Assembly: GCF_000685315.1 (NCBI RefSeq)
Contig: NZ_ARYM01000009.1
Span: 62,001 to 126,000 of the forward strand
Direction of reading: 5' to 3'
Length of the DNA: 64,000 bases
Source: Hyphomonas polymorpha PS728
GTDB lineage: Bacteria > Pseudomonadota > Alphaproteobacteria > Caulobacterales > Hyphomonadaceae
Shown here: positions 36,353 through 41,413 of the stretch, piece after piece
Numbering within the stretch: the first letter of the stretch is position 1
Layout of the letters: the number at the start of each line of letters is the position of its first letter
Translations under genes and position numbers: made by a program
Notes under the pieces: model-generated
Database searches by the model: none
Told to the model about the DNA's origin: nothing
What the model saw: the letters and a program-made list of their open reading frames with translations, nothing else

Positions 36353-37642
36353 ATGGCTGACACCGCCCCACCTTCCGGCCCGACCGTCATCACGCTCGGA
36401 TGCCGCCTCAACACCTACGAGTCCGAGGTGATGCGCCGCCATGCGCAGGAGGCGGGTCTCGGTGATGCGGTGATCGTCAACACCTGCGCGGTCACCTCCG
36501 AAGCCGTGCGCGGCGCCCGCCAGGCCATCCGCCGGGCCGCCCGCGAGAACCCCGGCGCGCCGATCCTGGTCACCGGCTGCGCCGCCCAGACAGACCCCGG
36601 CGCCTTCGCCGCCATGCCGGAAGTCACCCGCGTCATCGGCAATCATGACAAGATGAAAGCCGAAACCTGGAAACCGGCAGACCTGCTCGGCGGGGAAGAG
36701 AAGGTCCGGGTGAACGACATCATGAGCGTGCGCGAAACCGCCGCCCATCTGATCGACGGCATGGAAGGCCGCGCGCGCGCCTATGTGCAGGTCCAGAATG
36801 GCTGCGACCATCGCTGCACCTTCTGCATCATCCCCTATGGCCGCGGAAACTCCCGCTCGGTTCCGGCAGGGGAGGTGGTGGCCCAGGTGCGCGCCCTCGT
36901 CGCCAGCGGGCATCATGAAGTGGTGCTGACCGGCGTGGACCTCACCAGCTGGGGCGCAGACCTTCCGGGCACGCCGCAGCTCGGCAATCTGGTTCAGCGC
37001 CTCCTGAAGCTCGTGCCAGACCTCCGCCAGCTGCGCATATCCTCCATCGACGCCATCGAGATGGACGAAGCCCTGCTTGAGGCGATGACAGATCCGCGCC
37101 TTGCGCCCTATTTTCACCTTTCGCTCCAGCATGGCGACAATCTCATCCTGAAGCGGATGAAGCGCCGCCATAGCCGCGAAGACGCCATTCAGCTTACAGA
37201 ACGTCTGCGGACCTTACGGCCAGATATTGCTCTGGGAGCGGACATCATCGCCGGATTCCCGACGGAAACCGAAGCGCATTTTGAAAACTCCCTCCGTCTT
37301 GTCGAAGAATGCGGCCTCTCGTTCCTGCATGCCTTCCCCTACAGCCCGCGCCCCGGAACGCCGGCGGCAAGGATGCCCCAACTCGCCAAGCCGCTGGTCA
37401 AGGAGCGCGCCGCCCGCCTGCGTGAGGCCGGAGAGGCAGCGCTGCGGCGCCACTTCGCCCGCCATGCAGACCAGGTGCGCGAAGCCCTTGTCGAGCGCGG
37501 CAGCATGGCCCGCCTTTCAGACTTCACCCAGGTAAAACTCATCTGGCCGGATGGGGCAGGGAGCGACACGGCAGGGCGCGTTCTCCGTGTACAGATAACC
37601 GGCCATGACGATAAACAGCTATTTGGAACACCCCTCTCATGA
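36353..37642 (+). CDS. mtaB: tRNA t6A37 methylthiotransferase MtaB
   Basis: MtaB is a radical SAM enzyme that adds a methylthio group to t6A37, making ms2t6A. 429 residues: an N-terminal MTTase domain (TLGCRLNTYESEVM near residue 15, NTCAVTSEA near residue 43), the radical SAM cluster CDHRCTFCIIPYGRG near residue 152, and a C-terminal TRAM-like region. The N-terminal Cys set for the second cluster (GCRLN, NTCAV, GCAAQ) is intact. The ATG at 36353 is chosen over an upstream TTG. It overlaps ftsY by 4 bases. Confidence 0.95.
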   Translation: MADTAPPSGPTVITLGCRLNTYESEVMRRHAQEAGLGDAVIVNTCAVTSEAVRGARQAIRRAARENPGAPILVTGCAAQTDPGAFAAMPEVTRVIGNHDKMKAETWKPADLLGGEEKVRVNDIMSVRETAAHLIDGMEGRARAYVQVQNGCDHRCTFCIIPYGRGNSRSVPAGEVVAQVRALVASGHHEVVLTGVDLTSWGADLPGTPQLGNLVQRLLKLVPDLRQLRISSIDAIEMDEALLEAMTDPRLAPYFHLSLQHGDNLILKRMKRRHSREDAIQLTERLRTLRPDIALGADIIAGFPTETEAHFENSLRLVEECGLSFLHAFPYSPRPGTPAARMPQLAKPLVKERAARLREAGEAALRRHFARHADQVREALVERGSMARLSDFTQVKLIWPDGAGSDTAGRVLRVQITGHDDKQLFGTPLS

Positions 37643-38883
37643 TCCTCTGGTTCGGCAAGAAAAAGAAACTCGAAGAGGCCAAGGCTGCCGGCGAAGCGAT
37701 GAAGGCGCCGGAGCTGACGGCGGAGGAAATCGCCGCGCAGGAAGCGGCCGCGCGCGAGAAGGAAGAGATCGAGCGCAAGGTCGCCGAGGCCAACCGCGCC
37801 TGGGAAGAACGCCAGCGCCGGGAAGCTCAGGAGGCGGAGGATGAAGCCGTCCGCGCCAAGGCGGCGGCGGAACTCAAACTTCTCGAAGAGCGCCGCGAGC
37901 ATGAACGCCTGCGCGCGGAAGCTGCCGAGGCTGCGCGCCTTGCTGCGGAGGCGGAAGCCAATGATCCGGGCCTCTTCGGGCGTCTGGGCGAAGGCCTGGC
38001 CCGCTCCACAGCCAAGCTCAGCGAGGGCATTGCCGCCCTCGGCCGCCGCAAGCTGGATGAGGATACGCTGGAGGAGCTGCAGGACCTTCTCATCACTTCC
38101 GATATGGGCACCAGGGTCGCCGCCCGCGTCACCAAAGGGCTCGCCAAGGGCAGGTTCGACAAGGAAATCTCCGGCGACGAGATCCGGCTCGCCCTGGCTG
38201 AAGAGATCGAAGAGATTCTGAAACCGCGCGAAAAAGTGGTCGACTTTTCAGATGGCCCCCGCCCGCGCATCGTGCTCTTCGTCGGCGTCAATGGCTCAGG
38301 CAAGACGACCACCATCGGCAAGATTGCGTCAAAGCTGAAGGATCAGGGCGCCAAGGCGCTGCTGGTGGCAGGCGACACCTTCCGCGCGGCCGCCGTGGAA
38401 CAACTAAAAGTTTGGGGCGCGCGCGCCGATATTCCGGTGCTTGCCAAAGATACCGGCGCGGATGCCGCCGGCCTCGTTTATGAAGCCGTGGAGCGGGCCA
38501 AAGCGCAGGATCTCGATCTTGTGCTGGTGGATACGGCAGGCCGCCTCCAGAACAAGGCGGAGCTGATGTCGGAGCTTGCCAAGGTCGTCCGTGTCGTGAG
38601 GAAAATTGATCCCGATGCCCCGCATGACGTGATCCTGGTACTTGATGCCACGGTCGGCCAGAACGCGCTCTCCCAGGTCGAGGCGTTCCGGCATACGGCC
38701 GGCGTCACCGGTCTCGTGATGACCAAGCTCGACGGCACCGCAAAGGGCGGCGTGCTGGTCGCCATCGCCGAAGCGTATGATCTGCCGATCCATTTCATCG
38801 GCATCGGCGAAAAAGCAGAAGACCTCCGCCCGTTCAGCGCGGAGGCCTTTGCAAAGGCGCTGGTGGGCATCAAGGCGCCCTAG
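37639..38883 (+). CDS. ftsY: Signal recognition particle receptor FtsY
   Basis: FtsY docks SRP-ribosome complexes at the membrane. 414 residues: a charged Glu/Ala/Lys-rich A domain (about 10-110, likely helical, membrane-associating), an N domain, and the GTPase G domain with GVNGSGKTTTIGKIA near residue 216, DTFRAAAVEQL, DTAGRLQNKAELM and TKLDGTAKGG. Start codon overlaps the mtaB stop (ATGA), implying coupled translation. Confidence 0.97.
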   Translation: MILWFGKKKKLEEAKAAGEAMKAPELTAEEIAAQEAAAREKEEIERKVAEANRAWEERQRREAQEAEDEAVRAKAAAELKLLEERREHERLRAEAAEAARLAAEAEANDPGLFGRLGEGLARSTAKLSEGIAALGRRKLDEDTLEELQDLLITSDMGTRVAARVTKGLAKGRFDKEISGDEIRLALAEEIEEILKPREKVVDFSDGPRPRIVLFVGVNGSGKTTTIGKIASKLKDQGAKALLVAGDTFRAAAVEQLKVWGARADIPVLAKDTGADAAGLVYEAVERAKAQDLDLVLVDTAGRLQNKAELMSELAKVVRVVRKIDPDAPHDVILVLDATVGQNALSQVEAFRHTAGVTGLVMTKLDGTAKGGVLVAIAEAYDLPIHFIGIGEKAEDLRPFSAEAFAKALVGIKAP

Positions 38884-38885
38884 GT

Positions 38886-39101
38886 TTACTCGGCGGCCTT
38901 TGCCACGCTCCGGCCATCGTCAAATATCTCTTCGATATGCCGCTCGAACAAGCGGGCAATGGCGAAGGCCAGTGGCAGGGAAGGGTCATACTTGCCGGTC
39001 TCGATGGCGTTGACCGATTGGCGGGATACGTCCAGCAGGTCAGCCAGTTGCTGCTGGCTCCAGCCGCGTTCAGCCCTCAGGGCACGGATATTGTTTTCCA
39101 T
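38886..39101 (-). CDS. XRE-family helix-turn-helix regulator
   Basis: A 71-residue single-domain repressor-like protein: MENNIRALRAERGWSQQQLA, then the recognition helix region VSRQSVNAIETGKYDPSLPLA. This class usually sits beside a small membrane protein gene, as here (11 bases upstream on the same strand). It probably binds the long inverted repeat over the operon promoter (39536-39568) and represses its own operon; that is inference. Convergent with ftsY, with 2 bases between stops. Confidence 0.92.
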   Translation of the reverse strand: MENNIRALRAERGWSQQQLADLLDVSRQSVNAIETGKYDPSLPLAFAIARLFERHIEEIFDDGRSVAKAAE

Positions 39102-39112
39102 GGCCCGGCCCC

Positions 39113-39520
39113 TCAGACCGTCTTGCCAAGAGATTGGCGAAGATGCGCAAGGCCATAGAAGAAGAAAAAGCCCGGTCCAAACAGGAAGAGGGGAATGTCG
39201 GGGATCACGTTGAACCGCTCAAGGAAGCCCAGAATGAAGATGGCCCCGGTCAGCATTACGCCGCCTTCCGACAGGGCCTGCAATTGCCGCATCCGTGTGT
39301 ACTCGTCCGTCTCCCGGACCAGCCGCAGGATGGCCATCAGAATGGCGATCAGCGGAAGGGCGATCGCCACCGCTGCGCCCATGCGCACGCCGGTGGAGGC
39401 TGTGTCGAGGTCGATGAAGGTGAGGGCAACGGAGATGGCCACACAATAGAGCGCCATCATCGGGACGAAGATCCGCATGTAGCGCTTATTGGCGGTACGA
39501 AAGCCTTTGGGTTGGGTCAC
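39113..39520 (-). CDS. Small membrane protein paired with the XRE regulator
   Basis: 135 residues with about four hydrophobic segments (FVPMMALYCVAISVALTF, MGAAVAIALPLIAILMAIL, VMLTGAIFILGFL, IPLFLFGPGFFFFYGLAHL). The loop RLVRETDEYTRMRQLQAL is charged. The family is unknown to me, but such proteins commonly pair with YozG-like regulators. The start is taken as GTG 39520, with GGAG 7 bases upstream. The open frame continues to a TTG at 39559, but that would put the start inside the promoter repeat. Confidence 0.75.
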   Translation of the reverse strand: MTQPKGFRTANKRYMRIFVPMMALYCVAISVALTFIDLDTASTGVRMGAAVAIALPLIAILMAILRLVRETDEYTRMRQLQALSEGGVMLTGAIFILGFLERFNVIPDIPLFLFGPGFFFFYGLAHLRQSLGKTV

Positions 39521-39535
39521 GGGAAAGCTCCATGT

Positions 39536-39588
39536 CAAGTTTCCTTGTCTATATGACAAGGAAACTTGTCTTGTAAAGGACCCTTTAC
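39536..39588 (-). promoter_or_regulatory. Promoter with two nested inverted repeats (probable XRE operator)
   Basis: On the minus strand a -35 TTTACA (39577-39572) and a -10 TATAGA (39553-39548) are 18 bases apart, 28 bases from the GTG start. CAAGTTTCCTTGTC (39536-39549) and its exact complement at 39555-39568 flank a 5-base spacer centred on the -10. A second repeat, GTAAAGG / CCTTTAC (39573-39588, 2-base spacer), covers the -35. The arrangement fits an autoregulatory operator for the XRE protein encoded second in the operon. Confidence 0.75.
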
Positions 39589-39612
39589 AGACATTTTTTG
39601 AGCTCCGCGCAT

Positions 39613-39673: not shown

Positions 39674-41413
39674 CTATTCTGCCGCCATGGCGCTCGCCGG
39701 CGCGGCCCGCGCGCCGCGCATGAGGCGGCCGGGCAGCTTGCCGGTCGGGTCGCCGTCGCGGTGGGTGATCTCGCCCTGAAGGATGGTCGCGGTATAGCCC
39801 GAGGCGCGCTGCATCAGGCGGCGCCCGCCCGCCGGCAGGTCGCGTACCACGTTGGGCAGGTGCAGCTTCATATTGGCTAGATCAATCACATTGAGGTCCG
39901 CGCGGTATCCCGGCGCAATCAGGCCCCGGTCCCAGAGGCCGATCCATTCGGCGGTCTTTCGCGCCTGGCGATGTACGATGCTCTCGACACTGAGTTTCTG
40001 ACCCTTCGTCCGGTCACGCACCCAATGGGTCAGCATGGTGGAGGTGAACGAGCCGTCACAAATCATGCCGACATGCGCGCCGCCATCGGAGAGGCCGGGC
40101 AGGGTGGCCGGGCTCTGCATCATCTCCAGGATCGGATCGAGGCTGCCTTGGGCGTAGTTGAGGAAAGGCAGGTAGAGCACGCCGCTGCCCTCCCGCTCCA
40201 GCATCAGGTCCAGCGCCACGGCTTCAGGTGAAACCCCGCGCGCCTCGGCCATCGCGGCCAGCGTGCTTTCCGGGCCCGGCTCATAGTTTACCGGATCGGT
40301 GAGCTGGAAGATCTTGCCGAAATTGCGGACCATGGATTTCAGGAACGGATTGTCCGTCTGCGGCGCATCGGCCAGAAGGCGTGCGCGGAATTCCGGGTCG
40401 CGCAGACGGGCCACACGCGCTGCCAGCGGAAGATCGGCAATCTCCCGATAGGTCGGGTGAGCGCTGAACGGGTTCAGCGTCAGCTCCAGCCCCAGCAGCA
40501 CGCCCACCGGGCGCGGCGCCACCTGCGCGCGAATCGGCACGCCGTCTGCGGCCGCCGCCTCAATCGCGCCGAGCAGGTGTCGCCAGCCATTGGGTGCCAC
40601 ATCCGATTGGGCCAGGGACACAGACAATGGCCGCCCGGTCTTCTCGACGATCCGGCGCAGCATCGCCGCTTCCTTCTGCGGGTCGTCAAAGTCTGAGACG
40701 AACTGCAGCACGCCGCGGCCTGCCTCGGCCAGGCCCATGCCGATGCCGGTGAGTTCGGCTTCAGAGGCTGTCAGCGTCGGGGTCGGCTGGCCGTCGGAGG
40801 TGCGGTGGTTCAGCGTGCGCGAGGTGGAAAAGCCCATCGCGCCGGCCATCACGGCCTCCTTGGCGAGCTTTGCCATGGCGGCAATATCGTCCGGGGTCGC
40901 ATCTTCCCGGTTTGCGCCCCGGTCGCCCATCACGAATACGCGCAGCGCAGCATGGGGCAGCTGCGCGCACACGTCTGTGTCGAAGCGGCGGGCGGAGAGG
41001 AATTCTAGATAGTCCGGAAAGCTTTCCCAGGTCCAGGGAAGGCCCTGTGCCAGAACGGGGAAGGGGATGTCTTCCACGCCTTCCATCAGGCGGATCAGCC
41101 GGTCATGATCCTCGCTCTTGCAGGGCGCAAAGCCCACGCCGCAATTGCCCATCACAACGGTGGTAACCCCGTGCAGGGAAGACGGGCTGATCGCCTCGCC
41201 CCAAGTCACCTGGCCATCATAATGGGTGTGCAGGTCCACAAAGCCCGGGGTGACGATCTGGCCTTTCGCATCAATCTCTTCGATGCCCTTGCCGCTGACC
41301 TTGCCCACCTGCGTGATAACACCGCCGGAAACGGCCACATCGCCCTCGAAGGCTGCCCCGCCACTGCCATCAATGATGGTGCCGCCGCGAATGATCAGAT
41401 CGTGGGTTGCCAT
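39674..41413 (-). CDS. N-acyl-D-amino-acid deacylase-type amidohydrolase
   Basis: A 579-residue metal-dependent hydrolase. It begins with the composite-domain strand IIRGGTIIDGSGG, then the metal-binding DLHTHYDGQVTW near residue 59, and NCGVGFAPCK near residue 94 typical of D-aminoacylase/dihydroorotase-like enzymes. Metal ligands recur at SLAQSD and GDGGAHVGM-type positions (LSDGGAHVGMICD near residue 446). There is no signal peptide. These enzymes often remove acyl groups from D-amino acids; the true substrate is unknown. Confidence 0.88.
   Translation of the reverse strand: MATHDLIIRGGTIIDGSGGAAFEGDVAVSGGVITQVGKVSGKGIEEIDAKGQIVTPGFVDLHTHYDGQVTWGEAISPSSLHGVTTVVMGNCGVGFAPCKSEDHDRLIRLMEGVEDIPFPVLAQGLPWTWESFPDYLEFLSARRFDTDVCAQLPHAALRVFVMGDRGANREDATPDDIAAMAKLAKEAVMAGAMGFSTSRTLNHRTSDGQPTPTLTASEAELTGIGMGLAEAGRGVLQFVSDFDDPQKEAAMLRRIVEKTGRPLSVSLAQSDVAPNGWRHLLGAIEAAAADGVPIRAQVAPRPVGVLLGLELTLNPFSAHPTYREIADLPLAARVARLRDPEFRARLLADAPQTDNPFLKSMVRNFGKIFQLTDPVNYEPGPESTLAAMAEARGVSPEAVALDLMLEREGSGVLYLPFLNYAQGSLDPILEMMQSPATLPGLSDGGAHVGMICDGSFTSTMLTHWVRDRTKGQKLSVESIVHRQARKTAEWIGLWDRGLIAPGYRADLNVIDLANMKLHLPNVVRDLPAGGRRLMQRASGYTATILQGEITHRDGDPTGKLPGRLMRGARAAPASAMAAE

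Follow-up and report, generated by a model that had tools for sequence, protein, structure and literature searches.

Tandem candidate operators at the promoter of an XRE/membrane-protein gene pair in Hyphomonas

Described repressor/membrane-protein pairs and the Hyphomonas locus

In E. faecalis, CylR2 acts as a repressor and the membrane protein CylR1 is required for induction by means which, according to the accessible part of the source, are not understood (PMC3709268). Conserved pairs of an Xre regulator and a membrane protein were described by Makarova et al. in 2009 as PA2784-like, YoaS-like and PA4076-like; the accessible part of that survey indicates that such pairs recur in many genomes and assigns no role to them (PMC2701414). 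Repressor/membrane-partner regulators of this kind are widespread and little-studied. The locus considered here, from a Hyphomonas genome, is a new instance of this known type and is ordinary in principle. For a neglected family it supplies a concrete, predicted operator, a promoter layout that is conserved, and a candidate specificity residue. It was located in a 64-kb window, the whole stretch of DNA that was analysed, whose numbering is used below. The genes were arranged as follows, the names of the two flanking genes being derived from reading their translations:

37639-38883, convergent with the pair: ftsY, downstream
38886..39101, minus strand: predicted XRE/CylR2-like repressor, 71 aa, with recognition helix SRQSVNAIE including Ser29
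39113..39520, minus strand: membrane protein, 135 aa, four predicted helices, GTG start; matches no Pfam family at cut-off
39528..39531, minus strand: Shine-Dalgarno sequence GGAG preceding the GTG start of the membrane protein gene
39674-41413, minus strand: amidohydrolase, upstream of the pair

The XRE gene followed the membrane protein gene after 11 nt on the same strand, and the initial annotation was right in placing a membrane protein gene and then a 71-residue XRE gene downstream of the promoter. The order amidohydrolase-pair-ftsY was maintained in genus relatives.

The XRE protein displayed an HTH_3 domain (PF01381; 62.9 bits versus a Pfam cut-off of 23). Its residues 3-61 (out of 71) aligned with residues 4-62 of CylR2 (1utx; phmmer E 8.3e-12), and it also matched 9k3w (E 1.9e-21). 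The locus resembled CylR1/CylR2 in that a small XRE protein, clearly similar in sequence and of comparable length, is paired with a small membrane protein, also predicted as such. CylR2 binds promoter DNA, as stated in the accessible part of the source (PMC3709268), and promoter sites for the present regulator were predicted from sequence. Two differences were apparent: the target of CylR2 is a divergent toxin operon, while in the present genome clustered sites were found only at the regulator's own operon; and the same part of that source gives three predicted helices for CylR1, in contrast to the four of the membrane partner here. A divergent lanthipeptide/toxin operon was absent from the locus, which was flanked by the amidohydrolase and ftsY genes. 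Compared by description, the pairs of Makarova et al. likewise couple an Xre repressor gene to a membrane protein gene in a conserved arrangement, but no operator is given for them in the accessible part of the survey (PMC2701414). The operator was not found described in a literature search, most subscription papers being outside its reach.

Operator motif and promoter layout

The promoter region contained a perfect 14-bp inverted repeat with arms at 39536-39549 and 39555-39568 and 5 nt in between, the sole perfect inverted repeat with arms of at least 13 (gap of 10 at most) across the window. A second repeat displayed arms of 8 bp at 39572-39579 and 39582-39589 (TGTAAAGG-AC-CCTTTACA). The first repeat had been correctly recognised in the initial annotation; the second had been correctly positioned on the -35 region but given arms of 7 bases. 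Both proved to be copies of a single 16-bp motif, present three times in total. The region of the 14-base repeat splits into two adjacent 16-bp dyads, O2 and O3, 21 bp apart, while the repeat over the -35 region is the third copy, O1, 18 bp upstream of O2. The promoter features were:

39573..39588, minus strand: O1, GTAAAGGGTCCTTTAC, GTAAAG-GGTC-CTTTAC, over the -35 region (formerly the 7-base repeat)
39572..39577, minus strand: -35 element TTTACA, which is O1's right half-site extended by one base; most relatives have TTGACA here
39555..39570, minus strand: O2, GACAAGTTTCCTTGTC, GACAAG-TTTC-CTTGTC, within the -35/-10 spacer
39548..39555, minus strand: -10 region CATATAGA, with CATATA (16 nt from the -35) or TATAGA (18 nt)
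39534..39549, minus strand: O3, GACAAGGAAACTTGAC, GACAAG-GAAA-CTTGAC, covering the 3' edge of the -10 as well as the position where transcription is expected to begin

Lambda/434-type autorepressors are likewise XRE helix-turn-helix dimers acting on tandem pseudo-palindromes that overlap a promoter, and the core of O2 (ACAA-N6-TTGT) is 434-like. They differ from the present locus, where the flanks are of a chromosomal housekeeping type and a single promoter was found, with no divergent lytic promoter shown.

In 131 sites from relatives, the half-sites were kept and the inner four bases were not, the inner pairs being complementary in 44 and 20 cases. The symmetry of the 14-bp repeat can thus be regarded as accidental, since O2 carries TTTC and O3 carries GAAA, and since it is the half-sites and not the 14-bp pairing that are kept. 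Two exact sites 21 bp apart were present at 15 distinct loci, of which that of the window alone displayed the perfect 14-bp repeat, and the 14-bp dyad was rejected as a functional unit. O3 itself was degenerate across much of the genus.

These observations bear on the earlier proposal of two nested operators bound by two dimers or two proteins, which was not supported: the sequence instead contained one motif repeated in tandem as three operators, with spacings of 18 and 21 bp. It seems improbable that the 14-bp dyad at the -10 and a distinct 7-bp dyad at the -35 are read by two proteins, or by a single protein that recognises two types of site. Both dyads are indeed present and perfect in the window, but, besides the single perfect 14-bp dyad among the 15 loci, the -35 dyad has the same class of half-site as O2 and O3, and in most relatives O1 is of the CTTGAC type, as the other sites are. 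One protein, binding as up to three dimers to three tandem operators of one motif, is the simpler reading.

The hexamers and spacer lengths were compatible with a promoter: TATAGA (39553-39548) was separated from TTTACA (39577-39572) by 18 nt, and the alternative CATATA by 16 nt. A strict sigma-70 scan called no promoter at the locus, where the -35 hexamer TTTACA is non-consensus. When 41 O1/O2 pairs, each set drawn from distinct loci, were compared, O1 ended in the hexamer TTGACA in 23 and TTGACT in 11, and that ending O2 was CATATA, CATATT, CATAGT, CATAAT or similar. This indicates that the -35 element is built into the right half-site of O1 and that O2 fills the spacer; a minus-strand promoter under both repeats is supported by the perfect TTGACA at the -35 position of those 23 pairs. 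The layout also concerns the idea of an RNA hairpin formed by the 14-bp repeat and serving as an attenuator or in translation control, which its position directly upstream of the Shine-Dalgarno sequence would favor. Such a role is very improbable: the pairing was not conserved in relatives, and transcription would be expected to start within O3, so that only one 14-bp arm would be transcribed.

The reading that we consider likely is autorepression by the CylR2-like XRE protein, with up to three dimers on the tandem operators and a membrane partner most likely relieving repression. One dimer would occupy each of the three 16-bp operators, which cover the -35, the spacer and the transcription start in turn, and the bound regulator would repress, rather than activate, its own membrane-protein/XRE operon. 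As the -35 hexamer is half of O1, repressor and RNA polymerase would compete for the same bases, and occupancy of any of O1-O3 would be expected to hinder polymerase. The operator and promoter make an in vitro assay of the repressor feasible, and a promoter reporter could reveal the signal of the membrane protein.

Conservation of the sites and classes of regulators

Eighty-three distinct loci had an XRE gene preceded by a homologous membrane gene, identical promoter stretches being counted once. The pattern GWMAAG-N4-CTTKWC was encountered within 300 nt upstream at least once in 68 of them, at least twice in 54 and three times in nine, counts which were not blind since the window and previously inspected loci had served to define the patterns. 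It was found in none of 83 coding stretches and none of 1660 dinucleotide shuffles. Because of this origin of the pattern, hexamer dyads with a 4-nt spacer were also counted without any pattern. CTTGAC (20 of 26 loci), CTTTAC (13) and CTTGTC (10) led for Ser-type regulators, and CTTTAC and CTTGAC (10 of 13 each) for Thr-type regulators. The remaining 15 of the 83 loci had no exact site within 300 nt; in some of these a site was found farther upstream or in degenerate form, and others, for example L152-L156, L117, L120, L133 and L138, displayed none in the stretch examined. At eight loci (L038, L039, L043, L125, L127, L129, L132 and L134) the operators preceded the membrane gene by ~250-290 nt, which suggests an extra small gene leading the operon. 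The distance between the two genes also varied, with ~860 nt from the membrane gene match to the XRE gene at L030, L115 and L151; the genomes of L030 and L115 contained two tandem copies of the membrane gene.

Regulators could be divided according to residue 29 of the recognition helix into a Ser/Thr and an Ala class. With the same non-blind patterns, the 39 Ser/Thr loci comprised 33 with CTTKWC-type sites, none with C(A/C)TKWC-type sites and six with neither, and the 41 Ala loci comprised 23 with C(A/C)TKWC-type sites, none with CTTKWC-type sites and 18 with neither. Sphingomonad loci with Ala regulators (in the range L047-L110) displayed GTCA(T/G)G-N4-C(A/C)TGAC sites, some of them close to the XRE gene itself. 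As the Ala class is sphingomonad, taxonomy is a confounder of this segregation. Two Sphingomonas loci (L064 and L100) nevertheless combined Ser regulators with CTTKWC-type sites, which counts against a purely taxonomic cause; a third Sphingomonas Ser locus (L081) displayed neither type. The regulator tree (70 rows, 60 columns) was poorly resolved: it needed four changes between Ser/Thr and Ala but was compatible with a single one. The switch may thus have occurred once, and the segregation would then not represent many independent events. From these comparisons, a single residue appears to set DNA specificity, and the case for the XRE protein reading these sites is good, not conclusive.

The host genome (4.05 Mb) displayed the operator pattern at four places, three of which were at this promoter, and no further clustered sites were found in it outside the pair's own operon. 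A wider regulon in this genome was accordingly rejected, and in the host species the regulon would be essentially a single promoter. A second XRE regulator of the same genome (G000:C26:32682-32864), 55% identical, also followed a small membrane protein gene, and no site of the operator motif was found in its upstream region. Among 41 genomes of the genus, 27 contained the membrane gene, and 26 of these had at least two sites within 60 bp, the exception (G068) having one exact site. Such clusters were found in none of the 14 genomes without the pair, 13 of which displayed some regulator match at ~50% identity at best. One of the genomes without the pair (G048:C12, L180 ~950-1050) retained O1 intact, together with part of O2, next to the same amidohydrolase gene, an apparent relic of a deleted operon. 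A wider regulon was likewise rejected in relatives, where five extra single sites were inspected and, except for this relic, were in or next to reading frames that had no obvious connection with the pair. Self-repression by the XRE protein, as initially predicted, is well supported at the sequence level by sites which are conserved with the pair, nearly confined to its promoter and variable with the recognition-helix residue.

A class-wide search with the XRE protein at E 1e-18 gave matches in four out of 115 genomes, including that of the host. Among phages, 45 records were matched, one being 60-80% identical and the others lower.

The membrane partner and alternative roles of the pair

The membrane protein had no family at cut-off in Pfam and none through NCBIfam. 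Its AlphaFold2 model consisted of four helices (mean pLDDT 90.2), and a fold search with it against the PDB gave no match at E 0.001 or better. Aligned with 30 partners from alpha-, beta- and gammaproteobacterial records and from Balneolota, it displayed an Asp72 invariant in all 31 proteins, and Tyr14, Glu73 and Gly98 were nearly invariant. The charge distribution, interpreted by the positive-inside rule, is predicted to put the Asp-Glu loop and both termini inside. The partner would most likely sense a signal from the membrane or from outside, and would weaken the hold of the repressor through the conserved Asp-Glu loop on its cytoplasmic side. By analogy with CylR1/CylR2, sensing through the membrane protein is plausible, and the protein probably relieves repression.

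Autorepression could also be correct with a membrane protein that is a regulated effector, for example a transporter or a membrane-stress protein, and that sends no signal to the XRE protein, a possibility which we hold to be real but minor. Contact between the two proteins is hypothetical, the fold search gave no PDB match at E 0.001 or better, and similar partners are called 'likely an exporter' or 'likely permease' in the accessible part of the survey by Makarova et al. (PMC2701414). Against this stand the Asp that is invariant and the Glu that is nearly so across 31 partners, in a loop predicted to be cytoplasmic, although these residues would suit an active site as well as an interaction. 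Extending the preferred reading, in which the partner relieves repression, we tentatively suggest that XRE/membrane pairs may form a large family of minimal, phosphorylation-free transmembrane switches, in which a four-helix protein with a conserved cytoplasmic Asp-Glu loop would titrate or release its own repressor, the operators following a one-residue code (Ser/Thr for CTTKWC half-sites, Ala for C(A/C)TKWC half-sites).

A toxin-antitoxin module, with the membrane protein as toxin and the XRE protein as antitoxin and autorepressor, is unlikely. Two small genes separated by 11 nt, an XRE autorepressor and an operator array as is typical of such modules would agree with it, and the accessible part of the survey by Makarova et al. 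lists Xre/membrane pairs and mentions that some systems encoding membrane proteins could be novel toxin-antitoxin systems (PMC2701414). The same authors left such pairs out, because they knew of no type II system with a membrane component (PMC2701414, accessible part). The regulator gene is downstream of the membrane gene, the pair had a fixed chromosomal place in genus relatives and was missing from 14 of the 41 genus genomes, and a plasmid search with the membrane protein gave no match. The best NCBIfam toxin-antitoxin model reached 45.8 bits versus a cut-off of 71.65, and the membrane protein had no PADLOC match.

In Hyphomonas isolate M30B36 (L006 and L033) the membrane gene was split into two frames, covering residues 1-30 and 29-136, which is a frameshift or an assembly error. 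A record titled Acidobacteria (L035) displayed the Hyphomonas gene order at high identity and was probably misbinned.
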